This document shows, piece after piece, positions 1,785 to 14,954 of a DNA stretch of 53,235 nt. Origin of the DNA: Acidithiobacillus sp. GTDB lineage: Bacteria > Pseudomonadota > Gammaproteobacteria > Acidithiobacillales > Acidithiobacillaceae. Location of the stretch: positions 1 to 53,235 of the forward strand of contig NZ_DAHVHY010000005.1 in assembly GCF_027322205.1 (NCBI RefSeq), written 5' to 3'. The notes under the pieces are model-generated. The model had not been told where the DNA came from. It saw nothing but the letters and a program-made list of their open reading frames with translations, and did no database searches. Numbering within the stretch: the first letter of the stretch is position 1; each line of letters opens with the position of its first letter. A program made the translations under genes and the position numbers.

Positions 1785-2030
1785 ATGAATATCGAAGTTG
1801 GGTCATACGAAGCCAAGACGAAGCTGCCGGAGTTGCTGCGCGGTATCCAGGCGGGCAATCGCTACACTATCACCTTGCGGGGCGAGGCCGTGGCCGATCT
1901 TGTACCCGCTGAAGGCAACAAGCACTCGGATGCCATGGCAGCCGTCGATGAAATGTTGTCCTTCATGCAGGCTCGTCAGCCTGTGGACGGTGTCGATCTC
2001 AAGGCGCTTATTAACGAAGGTCGGGCATGA
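1785..2030 (+). CDS. Phd/YefM-type antitoxin
   Basis: MNIEVGSYEAKTKLPELLRGIQAGNRYTITLRGEAVADLVPA matches Phd-family pattern; overlaps a PIN-domain ORF. Confidence 0.88.
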   Translation: MNIEVGSYEAKTKLPELLRGIQAGNRYTITLRGEAVADLVPAEGNKHSDAMAAVDEMLSFMQARQPVDGVDLKALINEGRA

Positions 2031-2452
2031 AATTTGTCTTGGATGCTTCTGTTGCGTTGCTCTGGTTGGTGCCCGAATCCAATCCGGCAGGTGTGGATTA
2101 TGCCAGTGCGACCCTGAAGGCGCTTAGGGAATCGCAAGCCGTTGTGCCGTCCCTGTTCGCGCTGGAGGCAGCCAACGTTGCAGCCAAGGTGGAATCCAAG
2201 GGTGTTGTGATTGAAGCGGACGTACAACGATTCATCGCCCTCCTTGGGCGACTCAACATCGTGACCGATCAGGCAACATCGGCACACGCATTAGGGGACA
2301 CCTTGAACCTCGCCCGGCGCTATAAACTGTCAGCCTATGATGCGGCTTATTTGGAGCTATCGCTGCGCACGGGCCTACCGCTGGCAACACTTGATGCCGA
2401 TCTGGCGAAGGCAGCCACAACTGCGGGCGTTCCGCTTTTCAGTACTCATTGA
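2027..2452 (+). CDS. VapC-like PIN-domain toxin
   Basis: FVLDASVALLWLVPE... N-terminus, SAYDAAYLELSLRTGLPLATLDADLAKAA C-terminal acidic motifs; ATGA overlap with antitoxin. Confidence 0.9.
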   Translation: MKFVLDASVALLWLVPESNPAGVDYASATLKALRESQAVVPSLFALEAANVAAKVESKGVVIEADVQRFIALLGRLNIVTDQATSAHALGDTLNLARRYKLSAYDAAYLELSLRTGLPLATLDADLAKAATTAGVPLFSTH

Positions 2453-2692: not shown

Positions 2693-2965
2693 ATGCTCCT
2701 CATCAATCCATTACCGGTAATCCATTACCGGTTACTGAAAATGAATCTCCACAGGTATGCAAGCACTCGCCAGCGCGTCCAGGAGCTTGTTTATCTCTTG
2801 AATCGACGTAGCGCGCTGGCCAAGACCGAAGTATCGAGAACGATCTTTAGCATATCTCATAAGATATTACATCTGACGATCGCTAATCCTGCCCATATGG
2901 TCTGGTTCAGTGCCGCCAGCCTCTGGGAAATCGCCATCGATAGCTGCGTAATCGTCTTAACTTAA
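2693..2965 (+). pseudogene. Remnant of a second PIN-domain toxin
   Basis: ANPAHMVWFSAASLWEIAID matches the internal PIN-toxin motif (VSAASLWEIAIK), but the N-terminal LDTHVLLW motif and the C-terminal half are missing. Confidence 0.5.
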
Positions 2966-3748
2966 CGCCCCCACATCCACCGTTACCGTCTGTCCCTGCA
3001 AGCGCGTATCTATCCGCCGGGCGGCCTCCTGCAACAGCGGTACCCAACTTTCCTGACGACGCTCAATGGGTGCGGAGATGCTCAGTCCGGCATTCCAGGG
3101 CAGTTGGCTGCGAAGTAATACACCGATACAACCCACCCCGATCTCGGCCTCTTCATTATCCAGCGCATAGCCGCGCTCCAGAGCCGTGCGGGCGTCCTTC
3201 CAGAGTGTCGGGGTGTCGTGCAGGGTGTGTATGGTGAGCGCCGGTAAGTGGGTGCGGGTGGCATAACGCTCGACCGCCGCCTCACCATTCAGCGCCAGCA
3301 TCAGCTTGCCGACGGCGGTGGTGTGCAGGGGCGCGCGACTGCCGATCACCTGCTCTACCCGCATCATCCGCGACGGGGTGGCGCGCTCCACATAGACGAC
3401 TTCGTCGTCCTGCTGAATGGTGAGGTTCACCGTCTCCTGCACCTGATCGCGCAGCCAGGCCATGATGGGCCGGGCGATGGCGCGCAGGTCGCTGCGGCCG
3501 GGGGCGAGCTGCGCCCAGTCCTGGAGGTGGGGGCCAAAGCGGTAATGGCCGACGGTGTCCCGGGTGATCAATGCGTTGTCCTGTGCCGAGGCGAGAATGC
3601 GGAAGGCGGTGGAGGGCGCCAGTCCGGTTACGGCGGCGAGTATCTTGAGGGGGGCATTGCCGCCCTCCGCCGCGAGGGCGTCCAGCAGGGCGCGCAGGCG
3701 GTCGATGACCTGGATGGAGGAGTTTCTGTCGCTGGTAGAGTCTGGCAT
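2957..3748 (-). CDS. IclR-family transcriptional regulator
   Basis: N-terminal wHTH (LLDALAAEGGNAPLKILAAVTGLAPSTAFRILASA) and IclR effector domain (HTTAVGKLMLA...GYALDNEEAEIGVGCIGVLL). Confidence 0.92.
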   Translation of the reverse strand: MPDSTSDRNSSIQVIDRLRALLDALAAEGGNAPLKILAAVTGLAPSTAFRILASAQDNALITRDTVGHYRFGPHLQDWAQLAPGRSDLRAIARPIMAWLRDQVQETVNLTIQQDDEVVYVERATPSRMMRVEQVIGSRAPLHTTAVGKLMLALNGEAAVERYATRTHLPALTIHTLHDTPTLWKDARTALERGYALDNEEAEIGVGCIGVLLRSQLPWNAGLSISAPIERRQESWVPLLQEAARRIDTRLQGQTVTVDVGALS

Positions 3749-3844: not shown

Positions 3845-6064
3845 ATGACCGCCCAAAGCACCTTGCCCGCTAACGCTCCCGCCTTTTGCGCGGGTATGTT
3901 CCACTTTGGTGAATCCTGGCCGAATTTTGCGGAGTACGGCCGCAGTGCCGCCATCGCCGCTGGCCACAAAGCCATCCCGCATCCGGCGGCCAAAGCCGCC
4001 GTCTACCAGACCCTGCTCATGGCCGACGCCCTGCGCTACTGCACCTTGCAGATCTGCGCCGCCAAATCCTCCGGCCATCCCGGCGGCTTTGCCTCCAGCG
4101 TTGAGGCTTATGCGGCGCTGGTGATGCTCGGCCATACCAACATCGTCACCGAAGTGGGCCACCACGCCCCCGGTTTCTACAGCGCCATGTTCCTCGACAG
4201 CTCGCTGGAGGATATGGGTATCCGCGACATGAATGACATGATGGCGCGTTTCCGCGAACAGCATGGCCTGCTCGGCCATCTCTCCGGGGCGATCCCCGGC
4301 CTGTTGGCGCCAGCCGGCCCGTTGGGGCAGGGACAGCACTTTGCCATGGCGGGCGCGTTGCTGCACCCCGGTACTCTCTTCCCGGTGACCATCGGTGACG
4401 GCGGTTTTGGGGAGCCTTATGTGTTGAGCGCCATGAAGCACTTCCACTTTGCCTACCCGCGGGTCACCAACTACCTGCCGGTGCTGGTCTGGAATGGCTT
4501 TAGTCAGGAGCATCACTCCATGGTTTCCCTGATGACGAATGACGAGATGATCGCCTACTGGCGCGCCCATGACTTCGACGAAGTCATCCTGGTGGATGCC
4601 AGGGACTTCGACGATGCCGGTCAGGAAGGGGCCTATGTCGACTCCGCGCGCTTCTCCTTCGGCCAGCGGCTGGCCTTCATGGAGGCGGTGCTGACCGGTG
4701 TGGCCAGGGCGGCGGACCACGCCCTGGGCGGTCGTCACACCGCCTTCATTCTCAAGCAGTTGAAGGGGGCGGGCATGCATGTTTCGGGTGCCAAGTCCCA
4801 CAATCTCTATCCCAAGGACACCCCGGAATCGCCGGAGATCAGGACGGCGCTGGAGCAACGTGCCCTCAGTCCGGAAGCCTGGGCACTGGTGCGGGAGAAC
4901 TTCGCGCGGGCCGGTGGTGGTCCTGCCGCCAAAACGGCGGTGACCGAGCAGGTGTTGGAAATCGCCAAGCTGGGCGAATTTCCCATGCAGGATTTCGCCT
5001 TGGGCGAGCAGGTCGTGCCCGCCACCGCCATGGGCGCGTTGGTGGCCTGGCTGGGGCGGCAGGACCCACGCTTCGTGGTGACCAATGCCGACGGCAACGA
5101 AGCCTCGGCCATGAAGAACATCAATGACGCCCTGAAAATCCGCCACCCCACAGAGGACCCGCTCTACAACCAGCAGCCTGGGGGGCAGGTCTATGAACCC
5201 CTGAACGAGGATGCCTGCGCGGGTCTGGCGGCGGGACTGGCACTTTTCGGCAGCCGTTCCCTGTGGCTGTCTTATGAGTCCTTCGCCATTAACGGCTGGC
5301 CCATTATGCAGACGGTGGCCCAGGCCATGGCCGAACTGCGCCGCAAGACCCCGTCCACCGTCTGTATGTTCACCGCCGGTGCGCTGGAGCAGGGCCGCAA
5401 CGGTTGGACCCATCAGCGTCCGGAGATCGAGAATTACTTTGCCGCGCAGATGCGCAACGGCAACGTCTTCCTGCTCTATCCCACCGATGCCAATACCATC
5501 CAGGCGGCCTACGAGTACGCGGTGAACAGCGTCAACAAGTCGATGGTGATTGTGGCTTCCAAGAGCCCCCTGCCGGTGCGCCTGAGCATGGCACAGGCCC
5601 GCGCGGCGGTGCGCAAGGGGGCGGCGCTCTTGCATGATACGGGTGCAGGGCAGCGCGGCACCGTGACCCTGGCGGTGACCGGCGATATGGTTCTGCTGCC
5701 GGTTTTCGCCGCCAGGGACGTGCTGGAGAAGGAGGGGTATCGGGTGCGGATCGTGTCGGTGATTAACCCACGTCAGTTGTATCGTCCGGTGGATGTGGCC
5801 GCGCATACCGTTTCCGAAGCCGATACCGGCTTCATGCGCGACGCGGATTTCCACGCCCTCTTCGCCGGGGACTGGCTGCTGGGCATCAGCGGCGGCACTT
5901 CCGGGGCGCTGGAGCCGGTGCTGCTGCGTAGCCGGGCGACACAGCGCGATGTGCTGGCCTGGTTGCGGGGGGAGACCACCGCGACGCCGGGTGAGTTGAT
6001 GGCCTTCAACGGGATTACCGCCGAGACCATCGTCGGTAAGATCCACGGCTTCAACGCCGGATAA
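3845..6064 (+). CDS. Phosphoketolase/transketolase-like ThDP-dependent enzyme (substrate unknown)
   Basis: ThDP motif GDGGFGEPYVLSAMKHFHFAYPRVTNYLPVLVWN; PLNEDACAGLAAGLALFGSRSLWLSYESF...GWTHQRPEIENYF...YPTDANTI resembles XFP C-terminal domains. The track ORF start at 3248 overlaps iclR; ATG 3845 is preferred. Confidence 0.8.
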   Translation: MTAQSTLPANAPAFCAGMFHFGESWPNFAEYGRSAAIAAGHKAIPHPAAKAAVYQTLLMADALRYCTLQICAAKSSGHPGGFASSVEAYAALVMLGHTNIVTEVGHHAPGFYSAMFLDSSLEDMGIRDMNDMMARFREQHGLLGHLSGAIPGLLAPAGPLGQGQHFAMAGALLHPGTLFPVTIGDGGFGEPYVLSAMKHFHFAYPRVTNYLPVLVWNGFSQEHHSMVSLMTNDEMIAYWRAHDFDEVILVDARDFDDAGQEGAYVDSARFSFGQRLAFMEAVLTGVARAADHALGGRHTAFILKQLKGAGMHVSGAKSHNLYPKDTPESPEIRTALEQRALSPEAWALVRENFARAGGGPAAKTAVTEQVLEIAKLGEFPMQDFALGEQVVPATAMGALVAWLGRQDPRFVVTNADGNEASAMKNINDALKIRHPTEDPLYNQQPGGQVYEPLNEDACAGLAAGLALFGSRSLWLSYESFAINGWPIMQTVAQAMAELRRKTPSTVCMFTAGALEQGRNGWTHQRPEIENYFAAQMRNGNVFLLYPTDANTIQAAYEYAVNSVNKSMVIVASKSPLPVRLSMAQARAAVRKGAALLHDTGAGQRGTVTLAVTGDMVLLPVFAARDVLEKEGYRVRIVSVINPRQLYRPVDVAAHTVSEADTGFMRDADFHALFAGDWLLGISGGTSGALEPVLLRSRATQRDVLAWLRGETTATPGELMAFNGITAETIVGKIHGFNAG

Positions 6065-6076
6065 GGATTGCAGCGA

Positions 6077-7414
6077 ATGGCCGACGCCGACAGCAAAATC
6101 ATCGTCATTGACGACGACCCCACGGGTTCGCAAACAGTGCATTCATGCCTGCTGCTCACCCGCTGGGATACGGAAACGCTGGGCATCGCCCTGCGCGATC
6201 CGGCCCCGCTCTTTTTTGTCCTCAGCAACACCCGGGGCATGGCGGCCGCGCAGGCGGCGGCGGTGACCCGCGAAATCTGCCGGAATCTGCGGGTGGCGCT
6301 GGACCGCTTGGCGGCGACGGGGCAGGCGCTACGGCCTATTCTGGTGAGCCGTTCCGACTCCACCTTGCGCGGCCATTATCCGGTGGAAACCGACGTCATG
6401 GCCGAGGAATTGGGGCCGTTCGACGCCCACTTCCTGGTCCCCGCTTTTTTTGAGGGCGGGCGCATCACCCGCGACGGCGTGCATTACGTGCGCCAGAACG
6501 GGGTTGAAACGCCCGCCCACGAGACGGAGTTTGCCCAGGATTCGGTGTTTGCCTTCCATCACAGCTTTCTGCCGGATTATGTGGAGGAGAAGACCCAGGG
6601 GCGGATTCCGGCGGTGGTGGTGGAGCGCCTGACGCTGGCGGAGTTGCATGCCGGTTGTCTGCCGCGTCTACTGGCGCTCAGGGACAACGCTTGTGTGGTG
6701 GTGGATGCCGTGGAGCCTGCCGATCTCGCCGCTTTTGCCCGGGATTTGCGAGTGGCGGCGGCACAGGGCAAGCGCTTCCTGTTCCGTAGCGCCGCCAGCC
6801 TGTTGACGGCGCTGGCGGACTTGCCGCCGCAGCCGGTCGCGGCCATTGATATGGCGCGACTGGTGCGCGGCGGCAAGCCGGGTGCCATCGTGGTCGGCTC
6901 CCATGTGCGCAAAAGCACCGAGCAACTGGAGCGCCTATTGCAGGAGCCCGGTCTGGAGGCGATCGAGGTGAATGTGGATGCCTGCGCTGGCGACGCGCGT
7001 TCCAGGCAATTGCCAGCCATTTTGCAGCAGGCGGCAGCGGCGCACGACAAAGGGTTGGACGTGGTCATCTACACCAGCCGCAGTGAGCGCCGTTTTGCCG
7101 ATCAGGCTGCCCGCCTGGCCTTTGGGGAGGCGGTGTCGGCTTTCCTCATGGCCGTGGTGCGAGGCTTGCCGGAGGACCTCGGCTTCCTCATCAGCAAGGG
7201 CGGTATTACCTCCAATGATGTGCTCAGCAGTGGCCTTGCCCTGCGCATGGCGCGGGTCATGGGGCAGATTCTGCCGGGCTGCTCGGTAGTGACCTGCCCT
7301 GCTGATCACCCCCGCACGCCCAATCTGCCGGTGGTGATTTTCCCCGGCAATGTGGGGGATGCGGAGGGCCTCGCGCTCGTCCGTCGGCGGTTACGCGGTG
7401 CGGCAATCGAGTGA
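6077..7414 (+). CDS. DUF1537 four-carbon acid sugar kinase family protein
   Basis: IIVIDDDPTGSQTVHSC, SRSDSTLRGHYPVETDVM, VPAFFEGGRITRDGVHYV, SKGGITSNDVLSSGL are hallmark DUF1537 motifs. Confidence 0.9.
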   Translation: MADADSKIIVIDDDPTGSQTVHSCLLLTRWDTETLGIALRDPAPLFFVLSNTRGMAAAQAAAVTREICRNLRVALDRLAATGQALRPILVSRSDSTLRGHYPVETDVMAEELGPFDAHFLVPAFFEGGRITRDGVHYVRQNGVETPAHETEFAQDSVFAFHHSFLPDYVEEKTQGRIPAVVVERLTLAELHAGCLPRLLALRDNACVVVDAVEPADLAAFARDLRVAAAQGKRFLFRSAASLLTALADLPPQPVAAIDMARLVRGGKPGAIVVGSHVRKSTEQLERLLQEPGLEAIEVNVDACAGDARSRQLPAILQQAAAAHDKGLDVVIYTSRSERRFADQAARLAFGEAVSAFLMAVVRGLPEDLGFLISKGGITSNDVLSSGLALRMARVMGQILPGCSVVTCPADHPRTPNLPVVIFPGNVGDAEGLALVRRRLRGAAIE

Positions 7415-8889
7415 CGCGTTCCATGTCTGCCCCTCCTGACAGCGCCGCCTTCCTCGCCGAACTGCGGGCGGCGCTGTCTGCGGAGGCGGTATTGAGCGGT
7501 GCGGAAGATTTGCGGCCCTATGAATGCGACGGCCTCTCGGTGCTGCGCGAGTTGCCGCTCTGTGTGGTATTGCCCACGGACCGGGAGGGCGTGCAGGCGG
7601 TCCTGCACCTCTGCCAGCGTTATGGCGTGGCGGTGGTGCCGCGTGGCGCGGGTACCGGTCTATCGGGGGGCGCCCGCCCGATCCGCGGCGCGGTCCTCCT
7701 CAGCCTGGCCCGCCTGCGTGATATCCTCGCCATCGACTTGGAAAACCGTACCGCGCGGGTGCAGCCGGGCGTGCGTAATCTGGCCATCAGCGAAGCGGCC
7801 CGCCCCTTGGGCCTGTATTACGCGCCCGACCCCTCCTCGCAGATCGCCTGCAGCATCGGCGGCAATGTGGCGGAAAATTCCGGGGGGGTGCATTGCCTGA
7901 AATACGGTCTCACCGTCCACAATATTCTGGCACTGGAAGTGCTGACGGCGGCGGGCGAAGCCCTGCAGATTGGTAGCCAGGCCCCCGACAGCCCCGGCTA
8001 TGATTTGCTGGCGCTGATGACCGGCTCCGAGGGCCTGCTCGGGGTGGTGACCGAATGCACGGTGCGCCTGCTGCCAGTGCCGGAGCATACGCTGGTGCTG
8101 CTTGCCGCTTTCTCCAGCGTCGTGGCGGCGGCGGAGTCGGTCGGTGCCATCATTGCCGCCGGGATCATCCCTGCCGGATTAGAGATGATGGATCAGCTCG
8201 CCATCGAAGCCGCCGAGGATTTTGTCCACGCCGGCTATCCCCGCGATGCGGCCGCGATCCTCCTCTGCGAACTGGATGGCTCGGTCGTAGAGCTGAAAGA
8301 GCGCCGCCAGGAAGTGGAGGTGATTCTCCAACGCCACGGCGCCAGTGCCATCCGCATGGCCGAGGATGCCGCGACCCGCCTGCTGCTCTGGAAAGGTCGC
8401 AAAGCCGCCTTCCCGGCGGTGGGGCGTTTGGCCCCGGACTACTACTGCATGGATGGCACGATACCCCGTCAGCGTCTCGCCGAGGTGTTGGAGCGGATCG
8501 CCGCCTGGTCGGTCGAATATGGTCTGCGGGTCGCCAATGTTTTTCACGCGGGCGATGGTAATCTGCATCCTCTGATTCTTTACGACGCCAACGCCGAGGG
8601 GCAGTTGCACGCCGCTGAGGAATTTGGACGCCGCATCCTTGAACTCTGCGTGGCCGTCGGTGGCAGTGTCACTGGCGAGCACGGCGTCGGTGTCGAGAAG
8701 CTGGACAGCATGTGCGTCCAGTTCAACGCCGCCGAACTGGCGCAGTTGCATCGCATCAAACACGCCTTCGACCCCGAAGATCGCCTCAATCCCGGAAAGG
8801 CCGTGCCCAGCCTGCATCGCTGCGCCGAGCTGGGAGCCATGCATGTGCATCATGGCCGGTTGCCTTTCCCCGAACTGGAGCGTTTTTGA
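7411..8889 (+). CDS. glcD: Glycolate oxidase subunit GlcD (FAD-linked oxidase)
   Basis: VVPRGAGTGLSGGARP, PGVRNLAISEAARPLGLYYAPDPSSQIACSIGGNVAENSGGVHCLKYG; GNLHPLILYD; GEHGVGVEK. Confidence 0.95.
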   Translation: MTRSMSAPPDSAAFLAELRAALSAEAVLSGAEDLRPYECDGLSVLRELPLCVVLPTDREGVQAVLHLCQRYGVAVVPRGAGTGLSGGARPIRGAVLLSLARLRDILAIDLENRTARVQPGVRNLAISEAARPLGLYYAPDPSSQIACSIGGNVAENSGGVHCLKYGLTVHNILALEVLTAAGEALQIGSQAPDSPGYDLLALMTGSEGLLGVVTECTVRLLPVPEHTLVLLAAFSSVVAAAESVGAIIAAGIIPAGLEMMDQLAIEAAEDFVHAGYPRDAAAILLCELDGSVVELKERRQEVEVILQRHGASAIRMAEDAATRLLLWKGRKAAFPAVGRLAPDYYCMDGTIPRQRLAEVLERIAAWSVEYGLRVANVFHAGDGNLHPLILYDANAEGQLHAAEEFGRRILELCVAVGGSVTGEHGVGVEKLDSMCVQFNAAELAQLHRIKHAFDPEDRLNPGKAVPSLHRCAELGAMHVHHGRLPFPELERF

Positions 8890-8890
8890 C

Positions 8891-9955
8891 ATGGACCAGA
8901 GCCAGACCTTACAGGCGATCGTGCAGGAGGCCCACGCCAGATCCCGGCCCCTCGCCATTCGCGGCGGCGGGAGCAAGGCGTTCTATGGCCGCCAAACGCC
9001 GGAATGCGATCGGCTCGATCTCAGCGGCCATCAGGGCATCGTCGACTACGCGCCCAATGAACTCTTCATCACCTTGCGCGCGGGTACACCTTTGCAGGTA
9101 CTCGAAGCACAACTGTCGGAAGCCGGACAGATACTGCCCTTTGAACCCCCGCACTTCGGACCCGCCGCGACCATCGGCGGCACGCTGGCCTGCGGTTTTT
9201 CCGGTCCGCGCCGCCCCTACGCCGGGTCGGCCCGCGACACGGTGCTGGGCATGCGCATCCTCAACGGGCAGGGCGAAATCCTGCGCTTTGGCGGGCAGGT
9301 CATGAAAAATGTCGCCGGTTATGATGTTTCCCGCTTGATGGTGGGCGCGCTCGGCACCTTGGGCGTCCTGCTCGAGGTGAGCCTCAAGGTGCTGCCGCGT
9401 CCCGATCATGCCGTGACTCTGGTGCAGCGGGTGGACCCCGCCACCGCCGTCCAGCGCATGAATCTCTGGGCTGGACAACCCCTGCCGCTCTCCGCTACGG
9501 CGTATGATGGCGAGCACCTGTATATACGTCTTTCCGGCACCGGAAGCGCCGTGCGGGCGGCACAGACCCGGCTGGGTGGCGAAAGGTTGCCCGATGCCGA
9601 GGCGGCAGCCTTCTGGGTGGCCCTGCGCGAACAGCGGCACGTTTTTTTTCAGGGGGATGCGCCCTTGTGGCGTCTGGCCGTTGCCCCGGCCACACCGCCC
9701 TTGCCTCTCGCGGGCCAGACCCTCGTCGAATGGGGCGGCGGTCAGCGCTGGCTGCGTGGTGTCCGCGATGCGACGGCCTTGCGGCAGTTGGTGGCGGAGC
9801 ACGGTGGTCACGCCACCCTTTTTCGCGGCGGCGATCGCCACGATGAGGTCTTTCATCCCCTCACACCACCGCTGCTGGCCGTACAACAACGGCTCAAAGC
9901 GGCCTTCGACCCGCGCGCCGTCCTCAATCCCGGCCATCTTTACGTCGTCCTCTGA
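8891..9955 (+). CDS. glcE: Glycolate oxidase FAD-binding subunit GlcE
   Basis: LAIRGGGSKAFYGRQTPECDRLDLSGHQGIVDYAPNELFITLRAGTPL; order glcD-glcE-glcF. Start reassigned from track ORF 8624 to ATG 8891. Confidence 0.93.
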   Translation: MDQSQTLQAIVQEAHARSRPLAIRGGGSKAFYGRQTPECDRLDLSGHQGIVDYAPNELFITLRAGTPLQVLEAQLSEAGQILPFEPPHFGPAATIGGTLACGFSGPRRPYAGSARDTVLGMRILNGQGEILRFGGQVMKNVAGYDVSRLMVGALGTLGVLLEVSLKVLPRPDHAVTLVQRVDPATAVQRMNLWAGQPLPLSATAYDGEHLYIRLSGTGSAVRAAQTRLGGERLPDAEAAAFWVALREQRHVFFQGDAPLWRLAVAPATPPLPLAGQTLVEWGGGQRWLRGVRDATALRQLVAEHGGHATLFRGGDRHDEVFHPLTPPLLAVQQRLKAAFDPRAVLNPGHLYVVL

Positions 9956-9964
9956 GGCTCGCCC

Positions 9965-11230
9965 ATGCAAACCCACATCGCCCCCCGCTTTCAGAATGAC
10001 CCCAGCGTGACCGAGGCCGACGCCATTCTGCGCAGTTGCGTCCATTGCGGCTTTTGCACCGCCACCTGTCCCACCTACCAAATTCTCGGTGACGAACTGG
10101 ATGGTCCGCGCGGCCGCATCTATCTCATCAAGGAATTCTTCGCCGGTGCCCCGGCCACGGAACACACCCTGAAGCATTTGGACCGCTGTCTCACCTGCCG
10201 CGCCTGCGAAACCACCTGTCCTTCCGGCGTGCGCTACGCGCGGCTGGCGGAAATCGGTCGCGCGCATATTGAGGCAGAAGTGGGTCGCCCGGCACTGGAG
10301 CGGCTGAAGCGCCGCCTGCTGCGTGCTATCGTCCCCCATCCCGAGCGCTTCCGGCTGCTGGTACAATTCGGCGATGCTTGCAAACCTCTGCTGCCGGAAG
10401 CCTTGGCGCGCAAGGTCCCAGCCCTGCCCAAACCCTTGCCGGCCAGATCCACCGTCTTGAAACCGGCCCACCAACGGCGGGTCATCGCCCTCGCCGGCTG
10501 CGTACAAAGCGTGATGACTCCGGCGACAGGGGCGGCGCTGGAACAACTACTCGGCACCCTCGGTATCGCTGCAGAGGTTCCGGCCAGCGCCGGCTGCTGT
10601 GGTGCCCTCAGCCTGCACCTCGGCGCCCACAGCGAAGCCCACGACTACATGCGTCGCAACATCGACGCCTGGTGGCCGCTGATCGAGGCTGGCGCTGAAG
10701 CCATTCTGGTCAGCGCCAGCGGCTGCGGCAGTATGGTCAAGGAATATGGGGAGGCGCTGCAAAACGATCCGGACTATGCCGAAAAGGCCGCGCGCGTCGC
10801 CGCTCTGGCCCGCGACCCCAGTGAATGGCTTCTGGAACGCGCCGGAGAAATCCCTTTCGTGGCCGCGGATCGCGGCACCGTCGCCTTCCACGCCCCCTGT
10901 TCCCTGCAACACGCCCAGCGCTTGCAAGGCGGGGTCGAAATGCTCCTGCAACGAGCCGGTTACCGCTTGACCAGGGTCCGCGACGGTCATCTTTGTTGTG
11001 GCTCGGCGGGCACTTACTCTATTTTGCAGCCGGTGCTGTCCCAGCAGCTGCGCAATCAGAAATTGGAGGCTTTGCAGGCAGAGCAGCCGGATTGTATCGC
11101 CACGGCCAATGTCGGCTGCCAGATGCACCTGCAAAGCGGCAGTGAGACTCCGGTTCGTCATTGGCTGGAACTGTGTGCCGAGGCATTGGCACCCGCTGGA
11201 AGAGAGAGTGTTTCCTCAACTCAGCCGTAG
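9965..11230 (+). CDS. glcF: Glycolate oxidase iron-sulfur subunit GlcF
   Basis: Two CxxCxxCxxxCP motifs (CVHCGFCTATCPTY; CLTCRACETTCPSG) and CCG-domain repeats (SAGCCGALS; LCCGSAGTYS). Confidence 0.95.
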   Translation: MQTHIAPRFQNDPSVTEADAILRSCVHCGFCTATCPTYQILGDELDGPRGRIYLIKEFFAGAPATEHTLKHLDRCLTCRACETTCPSGVRYARLAEIGRAHIEAEVGRPALERLKRRLLRAIVPHPERFRLLVQFGDACKPLLPEALARKVPALPKPLPARSTVLKPAHQRRVIALAGCVQSVMTPATGAALEQLLGTLGIAAEVPASAGCCGALSLHLGAHSEAHDYMRRNIDAWWPLIEAGAEAILVSASGCGSMVKEYGEALQNDPDYAEKAARVAALARDPSEWLLERAGEIPFVAADRGTVAFHAPCSLQHAQRLQGGVEMLLQRAGYRLTRVRDGHLCCGSAGTYSILQPVLSQQLRNQKLEALQAEQPDCIATANVGCQMHLQSGSETPVRHWLELCAEALAPAGRESVSSTQP

Positions 11231-12130
11231 CCACCCCTTGCGGTAAAACACCCAGGCCGTCAGCACTTCCACCAGCACTAGCCCGCCGGTCACCGCCGCA
11301 AAGCCATAACGCCAGTGTGGAAAAGGCCCCAGCGGCACGTTCATGGCTGCGGCACCCGGAATAAAGAGCGGAATCGTCGCGAGAATGATCAGCGCCGCCA
11401 TGAATTTGAAGAGGTGGTTCACGTTGTTGTGCACCACATAAGCATAAGACTCCAGCAGTTCATTGATGGTCGCCTGATCACTGTCCACCTGATCCCGCAC
11501 CTGGGACAGTTCGATGCGGGTATCTTCATGAATTTCCACCAGGTCAGCATCCTCGCTGGGGAGAAAATGACCGATTTCACTGACCACGTACTCCAGTTGC
11601 AGCAGGCCCAGATCCAGCGCCAGCAGGCGGTCATTGATGTCCAGACCGCGATACACCACGTCATGCCGTTGCGCCTGGCGCAGATCCCGTTCCACCACGG
11701 CCATCTCCCGGGCCACTGAACGCGCGGTGGGCAGATAATTGCGGGTGACTTCGGCGATGATGCGCAGTACCAGCTCCCAGCGTTTACTCGGTTTCTGCGG
11801 ATCAATCAGGTGGCTCAGGAAGGGAATCTCCCGCTCGGCCAGGGTGACAAAATAGCCGGGCACGAAATACAAACTCAGGGGCACCAGCGTGAATTGTCCT
11901 GCTGCACCTTCTTTCGGTAGTGGCACCTGGAATTGCAAAGAAATCAACCGTTCTTCTTTGATCAGCGGGCGCGATGCCTCGCCTTCCAGGCGTTTGCGCA
12001 GGAAGCTCTCGGGGATGTCCAGGGTCGTCGCCGCCTGGGTCAGTTCGCTGGCCGAGGGGGCGACCAATGCCATCCAGCTCCGCCGGTTGGCGTTTCCGGA
12101 CAGCAGAGAATCGCGGGTGATGCGCATCAT
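11216..12130 (-). CDS. CorA-family transporter-like protein, AMN variant
   Basis: YAYVVHNNVNHLFKFMAALIILATIPLFIPGAAAMNVPLGP; two C-terminal TM helices; AMN in place of GMN. Confidence 0.85.
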   Translation of the reverse strand: MMRITRDSLLSGNANRRSWMALVAPSASELTQAATTLDIPESFLRKRLEGEASRPLIKEERLISLQFQVPLPKEGAAGQFTLVPLSLYFVPGYFVTLAEREIPFLSHLIDPQKPSKRWELVLRIIAEVTRNYLPTARSVAREMAVVERDLRQAQRHDVVYRGLDINDRLLALDLGLLQLEYVVSEIGHFLPSEDADLVEIHEDTRIELSQVRDQVDSDQATINELLESYAYVVHNNVNHLFKFMAALIILATIPLFIPGAAAMNVPLGPFPHWRYGFAAVTGGLVLVEVLTAWVFYRKGWLRLS

Positions 12131-12140
12131 GGGGCGGCCC

Positions 12141-13040
12141 TCACATGGAAAAAAAGCCGTGTTTACGCGCCCAGCGCGCGAACAACCAGGTTACGCCGAA
12201 GACATAGGCGATTAATCCGAACCAGAGATAATGCCAATGCTCAAGAGGCAGGGGCGTCATCATGTGCCAGGGCATGATGAAAGCGATGGGCATCATGAGC
12301 AGGGCCAGCCATACCGTCATCACCTTCATCACCGTATGGGCATTGTTCTGGACAATGCCATTATAGGCATTGGTTACCGCCAGGTAGCGCTCATGAATCA
12401 GATTCACACCCTCTTCTATCCGGCGCTGTTCACGCAGCGCCGCGTCCAGCAACGGATAGGCCGGCGATTCACCGGCTGTGGCACGCAGCGCATCGCGGAG
12501 AATAAGGCCGGTTTCCCGCAGGGCGATAACCAGTTCGCCGAGGTCCCGATTCAGGACCACAATCTGGCGCAGTTCGACGTTACTCATGGAGGTTTTGAGG
12601 GCCATGCGCAGCTCCTGCAAACGTTCCACCAGCACCCGTGCTACCCGTTCGTGGCTATAGATGACATTCAGCAGCACGCGTTGCAGAACTTCGCCCACAG
12701 CGGTTTGCCGTAACTCGCCCAGCCAGTCCTGCTGCAACGGCTGGATCAGCGCTTCCTCGCCCAGAATCGCCAGACTCCGTGGCGTATGATGCAGGGTCAG
12801 GTGCGCCATCCGCGCTACCGTGCCGAACTGCGCATCTTTTTCCAGCAGGGCTACGGGCAGGCGCAGGGTCATTTCATCATGGTGACAATAAAGACGTTGT
12901 TCTACGCAGTGCCGCAGCGCGGCTTCTAATTGCGGGCACCGATTCACCTGCTCCGGCGTCAGCAGAAAAAGCCCTTCTGCCGTATAGCGTTCGGCGGCGA
13001 TCCAGGTCCCTTCCGTCTTATCGTAAAATTGACAACTCAT
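12141..13040 (-). CDS. CorA-family-like protein with degenerate selectivity motif
   Basis: YNGIVQNNAHTVMKVMTVWLALLMMPIAFIMPWHMMTPLPLEHW aligns with the CorA TM region, but no GMN. Confidence 0.8.
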   Translation of the reverse strand: MSCQFYDKTEGTWIAAERYTAEGLFLLTPEQVNRCPQLEAALRHCVEQRLYCHHDEMTLRLPVALLEKDAQFGTVARMAHLTLHHTPRSLAILGEEALIQPLQQDWLGELRQTAVGEVLQRVLLNVIYSHERVARVLVERLQELRMALKTSMSNVELRQIVVLNRDLGELVIALRETGLILRDALRATAGESPAYPLLDAALREQRRIEEGVNLIHERYLAVTNAYNGIVQNNAHTVMKVMTVWLALLMMPIAFIMPWHMMTPLPLEHWHYLWFGLIAYVFGVTWLFARWARKHGFFSM

Positions 13041-13049
13041 GGCGCGCGC

Positions 13050-13991
13050 TCAGATCCAGTCTTTCTTGCGGAAGATCATGAACAGCATCCCGGATACCGC
13101 AAATCCGCCCCCCATGAGCACCGGCCACGCATAGATCCAATTCTGCAGGGGCAGGGGTACGTTCATCCCGTAGATGCTCGCCACCGTTGCCGGGGCCGCC
13201 ACGACCACGGTCCAGGCCGTGATGATTTTCAGGGTGTTGCTGATATTGTTTTGCAATACGCCGACATAGGCATCCATCATATTGGTAATGGTGGAGGCGT
13301 AAATTTCGGTCATGTCTCGCGCCTGCTGAAGATCGATGAGGGCGTCGGCGATGTCTTCCAGATCGCCCTCGTCCTGTTTGAGCAGCGGCAGGCGCATGGT
13401 TTGCTGAGCGACGGAGATATTACCTTTGAGCGCCGAAGAAAAGAGGATGAGGCTCTTATTGAGCGCGAGAAGTCGAAAGAATTCATTGTTATTCTGAGAG
13501 TTGCGAAGTATTTTCTCGGTTGCGGCAATTTCGGCGTTGATAATGCGCAGGGCGCGCAGATAGTCCCTGGCGATGGCCTGAAAAATCTCCGCCAGCAGCC
13601 CGCGCACATGCAGGGCCTTACCGCGCTGGCGCTGCCCGCGCAACTCGTCCCAGAGGGCAAGGGGCTGGGCGCTGGCCGTCACCATCTGCTGGGGCAGGAG
13701 CCAGAGTCCCACGGGCAGGGTACGGAAGCGCAGTTCGGCGGCGGCCTGCATGGGGGCGGGCACCTTGAGAATGATCAGGGCGATGTCGCCCTCCCGCTCC
13801 AGACGCGGGCGCTCATCCTCATCGGAAACGTCCTGAAACAGATAATCCGGTACCTGCAAATGCTGGGCGACAAAATCCAGCTCCGCGGTCGTCGGCGCCA
13901 CCACCTGAATCCAGGTGGCGCTCGGTGGCCACTGGAAGTCGGCGGTGACTTTCAGTTCAGCGTCCGTCTTTTCGTTAAACCAATGCAGCAT
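13050..13991 (-). CDS. CorA-family magnesium/divalent metal transporter (canonical GMN)
   Basis: VGVLQNNISNTLKIITAWTVVVAAPATVASIYGMNVPLPLQNW. Confidence 0.92.
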   Translation of the reverse strand: MLHWFNEKTDAELKVTADFQWPPSATWIQVVAPTTAELDFVAQHLQVPDYLFQDVSDEDERPRLEREGDIALIILKVPAPMQAAAELRFRTLPVGLWLLPQQMVTASAQPLALWDELRGQRQRGKALHVRGLLAEIFQAIARDYLRALRIINAEIAATEKILRNSQNNNEFFRLLALNKSLILFSSALKGNISVAQQTMRLPLLKQDEGDLEDIADALIDLQQARDMTEIYASTITNMMDAYVGVLQNNISNTLKIITAWTVVVAAPATVASIYGMNVPLPLQNWIYAWPVLMGGGFAVSGMLFMIFRKKDWI

Positions 13992-14021
13992 TCCGTCCCC
14001 TCCGTGCGTCCGTCAGCCCGT

Positions 14022-14954
14022 TCATATCCAGCCTTTCCGCTTGAAAATCAGTGCCAGTCCGGTAGAAATGCTCGCCCCCAGACCCAGCACGACCCAAAAA
14101 ATCCAGTCGGTCTTCTGAAACGGCAGGGTCGTATTCACCCCGTAGAGGGTCGCCAGCAGACTCGGCACATAAAAGATCATGGCCAGCACCGTCACCACCT
14201 TCAGGCCATGATTGATGTTGTTCTGCACCATGCCGGCGTAGGCGTCCATCATCGACGTACTGGTTCCGGCATAGACCCGCGCCCGCTCATGGGCCACCTG
14301 CAATTCCAGCAGAGCCGTGTCGATCTGCCGGGTGGCGGGCAGATCGTCGCGGATTTCCGGCAGGCGGGAAATCTTGAAGGCCGTGGCGATATTGCCTACC
14401 AGTGCCACCTCAAAGCGGGTCAGACTTTTGCTGATCTCCAGCAGGGTAAAAAAGTCGCCATTGCTCTGGGTCCAGTCCAGTTGCTGCTCGTTATCGTGGA
14501 TGGCGGCATTGAGCTGATGCAGGGCGTCTTCGTAGCTCTGCGCCAGAATCTTGAGGATGGCGGCGAGAATTTCGACACTTTCCGGTGGGCTGGAAAGATG
14601 CTCCATCTGCGCGAAAAAAGGCGATAATGGCGCAAAATCCCGGGCCAGCACCGTGGTAATCCGGTTTCCTTGCAGGATGATGCCCAAGGGCCGTTGTTCC
14701 CAGCTATCGACACCCGCGTCATCCCCCTTCACCGGGAATTGCAACGTAATGAAGACGCGCGCGCCATCGCGACGCAGCCAGGAGCGCTCATCGGGGTCGA
14801 GGATGTCCTGGGCAAAGTCCCAGTCGTCCGCCAACTGCCCCGCCCGTTGCCAGTCCGCCGGCAGCGGTGCCGTGAGATGCTGCCAGCCGCCTGCCGCCGC
14901 CGGTTCGGGCGCCGACGTCAGGGCTTGCGGATCTGCTGGCAGGGACACATCCAT
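14022..14954 (-). CDS. CorA-family transporter, GVN variant
   Basis: YAGMVQNNINHGLKVVTVLAMIFYVPSLLATLYGVNTTLPFQK. Confidence 0.9.
   Translation of the reverse strand: MDVSLPADPQALTSAPEPAAAGGWQHLTAPLPADWQRAGQLADDWDFAQDILDPDERSWLRRDGARVFITLQFPVKGDDAGVDSWEQRPLGIILQGNRITTVLARDFAPLSPFFAQMEHLSSPPESVEILAAILKILAQSYEDALHQLNAAIHDNEQQLDWTQSNGDFFTLLEISKSLTRFEVALVGNIATAFKISRLPEIRDDLPATRQIDTALLELQVAHERARVYAGTSTSMMDAYAGMVQNNINHGLKVVTVLAMIFYVPSLLATLYGVNTTLPFQKTDWIFWVVLGLGASISTGLALIFKRKGWI

Follow-up and report, generated by a model that had tools for sequence, protein, structure and literature searches.

A conserved ThDP enzyme–DUF1537 kinase operon of Calvin-cycle bacteria as a candidate route for glycolate salvage

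What is the function of an operon in which a divergent thiamine diphosphate (ThDP)-dependent enzyme is encoded together with a DUF1537 kinase and the three subunits of glycolate dehydrogenase? The question is raised by a 53,235-nucleotide stretch of an Acidithiobacillus sp. genome (assembly GCF_027322205.1, contig NZ_DAHVHY010000005.1), hereafter the window, in which an iclR gene on the reverse strand is followed on the forward strand by genes for the ThDP enzyme and the kinase and by glcD, glcE and glcF (Table 1). We consider a role of the operon in glycolate/glyoxylate metabolism highly probable, and this conserved five-gene operon of Calvin-cycle bacteria probably recycles a toxic by-product of the reaction of Rubisco with oxygen. 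More tentatively, with the balance falling just short of even, it would constitute an undescribed phosphoglycolate/glyoxylate salvage in these bacteria, built on a new ThDP family, a DUF1537 kinase and decarboxylation to dihydroxyacetone phosphate (DHAP). The disposal of 2-phosphoglycolate in Calvin-cycle chemolithoautotrophs has been little studied outside Cupriavidus (PMC7486775), and no description of a glycolate module of the ThDP–DUF1537 type was found in a search of open-access literature that covered few subscription papers and no preprints.

The pathway that we propose is a glyoxylate-induced salvage of glycolate originating mainly from Rubisco's 2-phosphoglycolate. Glycolate would be oxidised to glyoxylate by GlcDEF, after which the ThDP enzyme, a putative glyoxylate ketol-transferase, would move a two-carbon ketol from xylulose 5-phosphate (Xu5P) or fructose 6-phosphate (F6P) to glyoxylate, leaving glyceraldehyde 3-phosphate or erythrose 4-phosphate, respectively, and producing 3-oxo-tetronate (2,4-dihydroxy-3-oxobutanoate). 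The kinase, a predicted 3-oxo-tetronate 4-kinase, would convert the latter to 3-oxo-tetronate 4-phosphate, a beta-keto acid that would decarboxylate to DHAP either spontaneously or enzymatically; the enzyme would be encoded at another site or, in a small number of relatives, be an adjacent class-II aldolase-type protein. Since the product of ketol transfer to glyoxylate would be what characterised DUF1537 3-oxo-tetronate kinases act on, the genes would together provide a route from glycolate to DHAP, decarboxylation apart. The net reaction would be glyoxylate + Xu5P + ATP -> 2 triose phosphates + CO2, with no need for glycerate kinase, transamination or malate synthase; per glyoxylate, one carbon would be retained, one lost as CO2 and one ATP spent. 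We infer the reactions from ketol transfer onwards and the ligand of the IclR protein from gene content and sequence, and regard this exact chemistry (ketol transfer, 3-oxo-tetronate kinase, decarboxylation to DHAP) as evenly balanced between right and wrong.

Conservation of the module and its association with Rubisco

A survey of public genomes retained 80 loci out of at least 445 relatives found, mostly from autotrophic hosts; named ones include Acidithiobacillus, Gallionella, Sideroxydans, Thiobacillus, Thiocapsa, Allochromatium, Nitrotoga and Sulfuriferula. The DUF1537 gene lies next downstream of the ThDP gene, on the same strand, in 78 of 78 loci extending far enough (80 were fetched), and a divergent iclR is found in most of them. 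GlcDEF, whole or partial, is encoded near the ThDP gene in about half of the public loci. Every complete locus among the first-fetched relatives keeps the order ThDP–DUF1537–GlcD–E–F; L028 and L027 both end inside the ThDP gene, with GlcF divergent from it in L027. The co-occurrence that the earlier note had suggested surveying is conserved far beyond chance. An additional gene in the gap between kinase and GlcD, considered for L107 and L110, was unconvincing.

Among 57 relatives searched, DUF1537 was detected in 24, all of them with the ThDP gene and with a single copy, bar one gene split across two contigs. The six Acidithiobacillaceae that have no module (G001, G015, G017, G020, G023 and G025) were also without GlcF over the cut-off, and the carriers have GlcF, except G007 (85% complete). 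In this family, the ThDP enzyme, the sole DUF1537 gene and GlcF are present or absent together. Of 369 genomes examined across the class, 33 carry the ThDP gene, and Rubisco is present in 31/33 carriers vs 138/336 non-carriers (Fisher p = 1.1e-9), the two Rubisco-negative carriers being genomes of 86% and 79% completeness; when only good-quality genomes are counted, the figures are 30/30 carriers vs 150/314 overall (p = 4e-11), although both tests treat genomes as independent and their significance is therefore overstated. The link between C4 acid sugars and glycolate/glyoxylate that the earlier note had drawn through the ThDP enzyme and the kinase, possibly as phosphoglycolate salvage, is partly supported, the association being strongly conserved and tied to Rubisco. 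The note named no reaction; in our proposal, the direction is reversed, from C2 to C4. Separately, weak Rubisco-family matches of the Rubisco-like-protein type (G000:C60, in the window's own genome G000, and equivalents) occur in nearly all Acidithiobacillaceae searched, with or without the module.

The ThDP enzyme, the kinase and the regulator

The ThDP enzyme (739 aa, P0001) scored 79–106 bits with the phosphoketolase (XFP) models against cut-offs of 777–1518 (best, 106 vs 962 for the NCBIfam phosphoketolase) and at most 44.6 bits vs 682 with transketolase models, which bears out its earlier description as phosphoketolase-like but divergent. It shares approximately 21–23% identity with XFPs and transketolases from the same bacterial group and 93% with the ThDP protein of A. 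ferrianus; the genome of the window has its closest relatives in Acidithiobacillus. In a 23-row tree, the XFP and transketolase groups were fully supported and the ThDP family formed a third group on long branches, whose exact position is unsure because of its own support (66/83). Judged by its sequence, the protein falls outside both phosphoketolases and transketolases and appears to represent a third deep clade of the superfamily. Another strongly divergent transketolase/XFP-like protein, 27% identical to that of the window, is encoded at L116:1213-3567 (G037:C38); its genome gave no match to Rubisco and is without DUF1537.

The first half of the ThDP enzyme carries the transketolase-type motifs SGHPGG and GPLGQG in place of the GHWG and GGELG of XFPs, and the second half the XFP-type motifs SYESF, NGWTHQ and ASK. 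The catalytic residues H78, H145, H319, E455 and H523 are retained; in the alignment, G77, H78, H145, E455 and H523 are invariant across transketolases, XFPs and the ThDP family. R518 and K573, invariant in 12/12 aligned family members, align with XFP positions 548 and 605, which, from the B. longum/breve structures, we take to form the phosphate site. At the position of R518, transketolase has an acidic residue close to its acceptor; the Arg would be a good fit for an acceptor that is itself acidic, such as glyoxylate. A structure model, which replaced a poor one from nine close sequences, has the XFP/transketolase fold (predicted local distance difference test 86.4, predicted template modelling (TM) score 0.86), with low confidence in the active-site loop 513-522. 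The best Foldseek match was 3ai7, an XFP (TM 0.77/0.70, E 4e-33); XFPs lead by E-value, with transketolases close behind.

The kinase matched PF07005 (192 bits) and PF17042 (136 bits), both well above cut-off, and carries the SDSTLRG motif. For characterised DUF1537 3-oxo-tetronate kinases, the product leads to DHAP (PMC12540250). As the earlier note had remarked, neither OtnC nor PdxA2 accompanies the kinase in the window operon; yet in 3/77 loci (L046, L052 and L077), an F_bP_aldolase gene, of the type of Arthrobacter 2-OtnC, lies 19–29 nt behind the kinase, and its product is a candidate for the decarboxylation step there. With so few cases, OtnC was rejected as a general member of the module. 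In L105 (Nitrotoga sp. M5), two tandem DUF1537 genes follow the ThDP gene. GlcE (522 bits vs cut-off 284) and GlcF (599 vs 333) exceed the NCBIfam glycolate oxidase cut-offs; GlcD falls below both curated models (768 vs 897 and 519 vs 568).

The best NCBIfam match of the window IclR was BhcR (131 bits vs cut-off 350), and E. coli AllR and IclR were among its closest solved relatives; all three of these regulators bind glyoxylate (PMC11323563). Of the residues listed there as contacting glyoxylate/pyruvate in IclR, the Asp and the two Ser look conserved by eye, with Ala-Val in place of the Gly-Ala pair, and the window protein is a putative glyoxylate sensor. Its probable operator is a 15-bp palindrome upstream of the ThDP gene. 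The pattern TTYCRYAWTRYGRAA (<=1 mismatch) was found in 65/65 iclR–ThDP gaps, compared with 6 occurrences in 1.07 Mb of other sequence, an enrichment that is partly by construction, as the pattern was built from the same loci. In six sister-genus loci (L023, L024, L025, L030, L034 and L076), where a major facilitator superfamily (MFS) transporter gene adjoins the module and a PF02595 glycerate kinase gene is nearby, the motif recurs with 1–2 mismatches approximately 150–210 nt upstream of the MFS gene, suggesting a small regulon.

The proposed pathway weighed against alternatives

Do carriers have other means of consuming glyoxylate? The search covered glyoxylate carboligase (Gcl), malate synthase and two families of glycerate kinase. 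Gcl exceeded the cut-off in 0/57 relatives and in 1/14 named control genomes. Malate synthase was found in 0/31 genomes of the Acidithiobacillales, an order important in bioleaching, in agreement with Table 1 of Claassens et al. 2020 (0% of 9 Rubisco-positive Acidithiobacillales; PMC7486775). Glycerate kinases of the PF02595 and MOFRL families were absent from the genus Acidithiobacillus (the plant-type PRK-family glycerate kinase was not tested), which leaves neither the glycerate pathway nor a C2 cycle of the plant-like kind with its normal final step in that genus. Outside the family, the module is not always the sole route, since some carriers there also encode glycerate kinase or malate synthase.

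Several findings weigh against the pathway as proposed. Class-wide, Rubisco-positive carriers have MOFRL glycerate kinase (19/31) and malate synthase (8/31) as non-carriers do; as neither is depleted, the strict idea that carriers lack every other route was rejected. GlcDEF is non-adjacent in many loci, and 74/77 loci have no decarboxylase gene. The only NCBIfam match of the kinase was to D-threonate kinase (NF047819, 73.9 bits vs cut-off 450), with no match to any NCBIfam model of 3-oxo-tetronate kinase (OtnK). A search of open-access literature, preprints not included, yielded no paper in which a transketolase accepts glyoxylate. Finally, seven family genomes, from sister genera, have a PF02595 glycerate kinase gene beside the module, and nine loci have a tartronate-semialdehyde-reductase-like gene nearby, hinting that glycerate is an intermediate in some lineages.

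These last neighbours, together with the absence of Gcl itself from the relatives, are what would be expected if the ThDP enzyme were a Gcl analogue converting two glyoxylate to tartronate semialdehyde and CO2, with a reductase then forming glycerate and the DUF1537 or another kinase phosphorylating it. However, known Gcl is an enzyme of the acetolactate synthase type, a different ThDP family, C4 or C5 acid sugars are the substrates of characterised DUF1537 enzymes, the genus Acidithiobacillus is without both tested glycerate kinase families, and lineages that have glycerate kinase nonetheless retain DUF1537. We regard this alternative as unlikely.

Equally doubtful is that the operon has the same role with another donor (hydroxypyruvate or another 2-oxo acid) or another acceptor (glycolaldehyde or another aldehyde), with the substrate of the kinase shifting accordingly. 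Hydroxypyruvate is usable by transketolases, the sequence does not reveal donor and acceptor, and model confidence is low for the active-site loop 513-522; R518 and K573, invariant residues aligned with the phosphate-binding positions of XFP, favour a phosphoketose donor.

An ordinary Xu5P/F6P phosphoketolase making acetyl phosphate, with a loose tie to the glycolate genes, would account for the distant XFP similarity, the top structural matches and the XFP-like C-terminal motifs. Such activity is unlikely for a protein with replaced GHWG and GGELG motifs and scores so far under the XFP cut-offs; moreover, many genomes with the ThDP gene, G000 included, encode a canonical XFP as a separate paralogue, and the constant kinase partner would be left unexplained, all of which makes this explanation quite improbable. 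Least credible is that the operon breaks down exogenous four-carbon acid sugars (threonate, erythronate), with the GlcDEF-like proteins oxidising the acid sugar: DUF1537 kinases are known in threonate/erythronate pathways, and tripartite ATP-independent periplasmic (TRAP), Liv-type ATP-binding cassette (ABC) and MFS transporters are encoded near the module in some lineages, but the glycolate oxidase scores of GlcE and GlcF, a conserved core without acid-sugar dehydrogenase or isomerase, the Rubisco association and a regulator resembling glyoxylate sensors argue otherwise.

Gene neighbourhood and comparison with known systems

The six genes proved to lie where the earlier note had placed them and to belong to the families it had named, Pfam and NCBIfam being in agreement (Table 1). 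The junctions are tight; glcD has a GTG start and overlaps the kinase stop by 4 nt.

Table 1. Operon genes and putative regulatory sites in the window
Feature	Position	Strand	Basis
iclR, divergent IclR-family regulator	2957-3748	-	Pfam + NCBIfam
Palindrome, 15 bp, TTCCGCATTGTGGAA	3755-3769	.	unique match within window
Degenerate second site, TACCCTATTGCGGAA	3774-3788	.	19 bp downstream of first palindrome; spacing recurs in several relatives
ThDP-dependent enzyme	3845-6064	+	open reading frame (ORF), Pfam + NCBIfam, tree, alignment, structure model
DUF1537 four-carbon acid-sugar kinase (SBD_N + NBD_C)	6077-7414	+	Pfam + NCBIfam
GlcD, FAD subunit of glycolate dehydrogenase	7411-8889	+	Pfam + NCBIfam
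GlcE, FAD-binding subunit of glycolate dehydrogenase	8891-9955	+	Pfam + NCBIfam
GlcF, iron-sulfur subunit of glycolate dehydrogenase	9965-11230	+	Pfam + NCBIfam

Elsewhere in the window, four successive ORFs on the reverse strand (11216-14954) look CorA-like by eye, and two of the four have homologues behind the module in G003 as well; an ORF at 2027-2452 (+) resembles, by eye, a PIN-domain (VapC-like) protein. A plasmid search at E <= 1e-60 gave zero matches. In L039, L041, L048, L049, L058 and L075, a gene for a Liv-type ABC transporter binding protein stands immediately behind the kinase, with no adjacent GlcDEF, and several of these loci have aldehyde dehydrogenase, tartronate-semialdehyde-reductase-like, GlcG-like and LutA-like genes nearby. 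A DctP TRAP substrate-binding protein gene behind the kinase in L053, L066, L083, L084 and L077 hints at uptake of an external organic acid.

If true, the pathway would represent a short, nitrogen-free route costing one ATP, built around a novel family of ThDP enzymes and widely distributed among sulfur, iron and nitrite oxidisers and purple sulfur bacteria, and a possible component for engineered photorespiration bypasses. Genes matching only distant models, of phosphoketolase and D-threonate kinase, thereby become a testable pathway.

The glycerate pathway, malate cycle, C2 cycle and beta-hydroxyaspartate cycle would likewise handle glyoxylate from phosphoglycolate, and the IclR-type regulator of the window is similar to BhcR; these routes differ from the proposed one in enzymes and products, and the Acidithiobacillus genomes searched yielded no Gcl, no malate synthase and neither of the two glycerate kinase families. 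With XFPs, the ThDP enzyme shares the fold, the SYESF/NGWTHQ/ASK motifs and the catalytic Glu and His, whereas identity is approximately 23%, GHWG/GGELG are missing, Arg occupies the H548 position and scores are far under the family cut-offs. With transketolases, it shares SGHPGG and GPLGQG, the fold and, likely, ketol-transfer chemistry, and differs in overall sequence (approximately 22% identity), in its XFP-like C-terminal half and, less surely, in forming its own group in the tree (support 66/83). The kinase resembles the known DUF1537 kinases (OtnK, DtnK, 2-OtnK and OiaK) in both Pfam domains and SDSTLRG, and the 2-OtnK/2-OtnC pairing of kinase and F_bP_aldolase-type protein in Arthrobacter is mirrored in three relatives; however, known DUF1537 kinases sit with an acid-sugar dehydrogenase, whereas that of the window sits with a ThDP enzyme and glycolate dehydrogenase.

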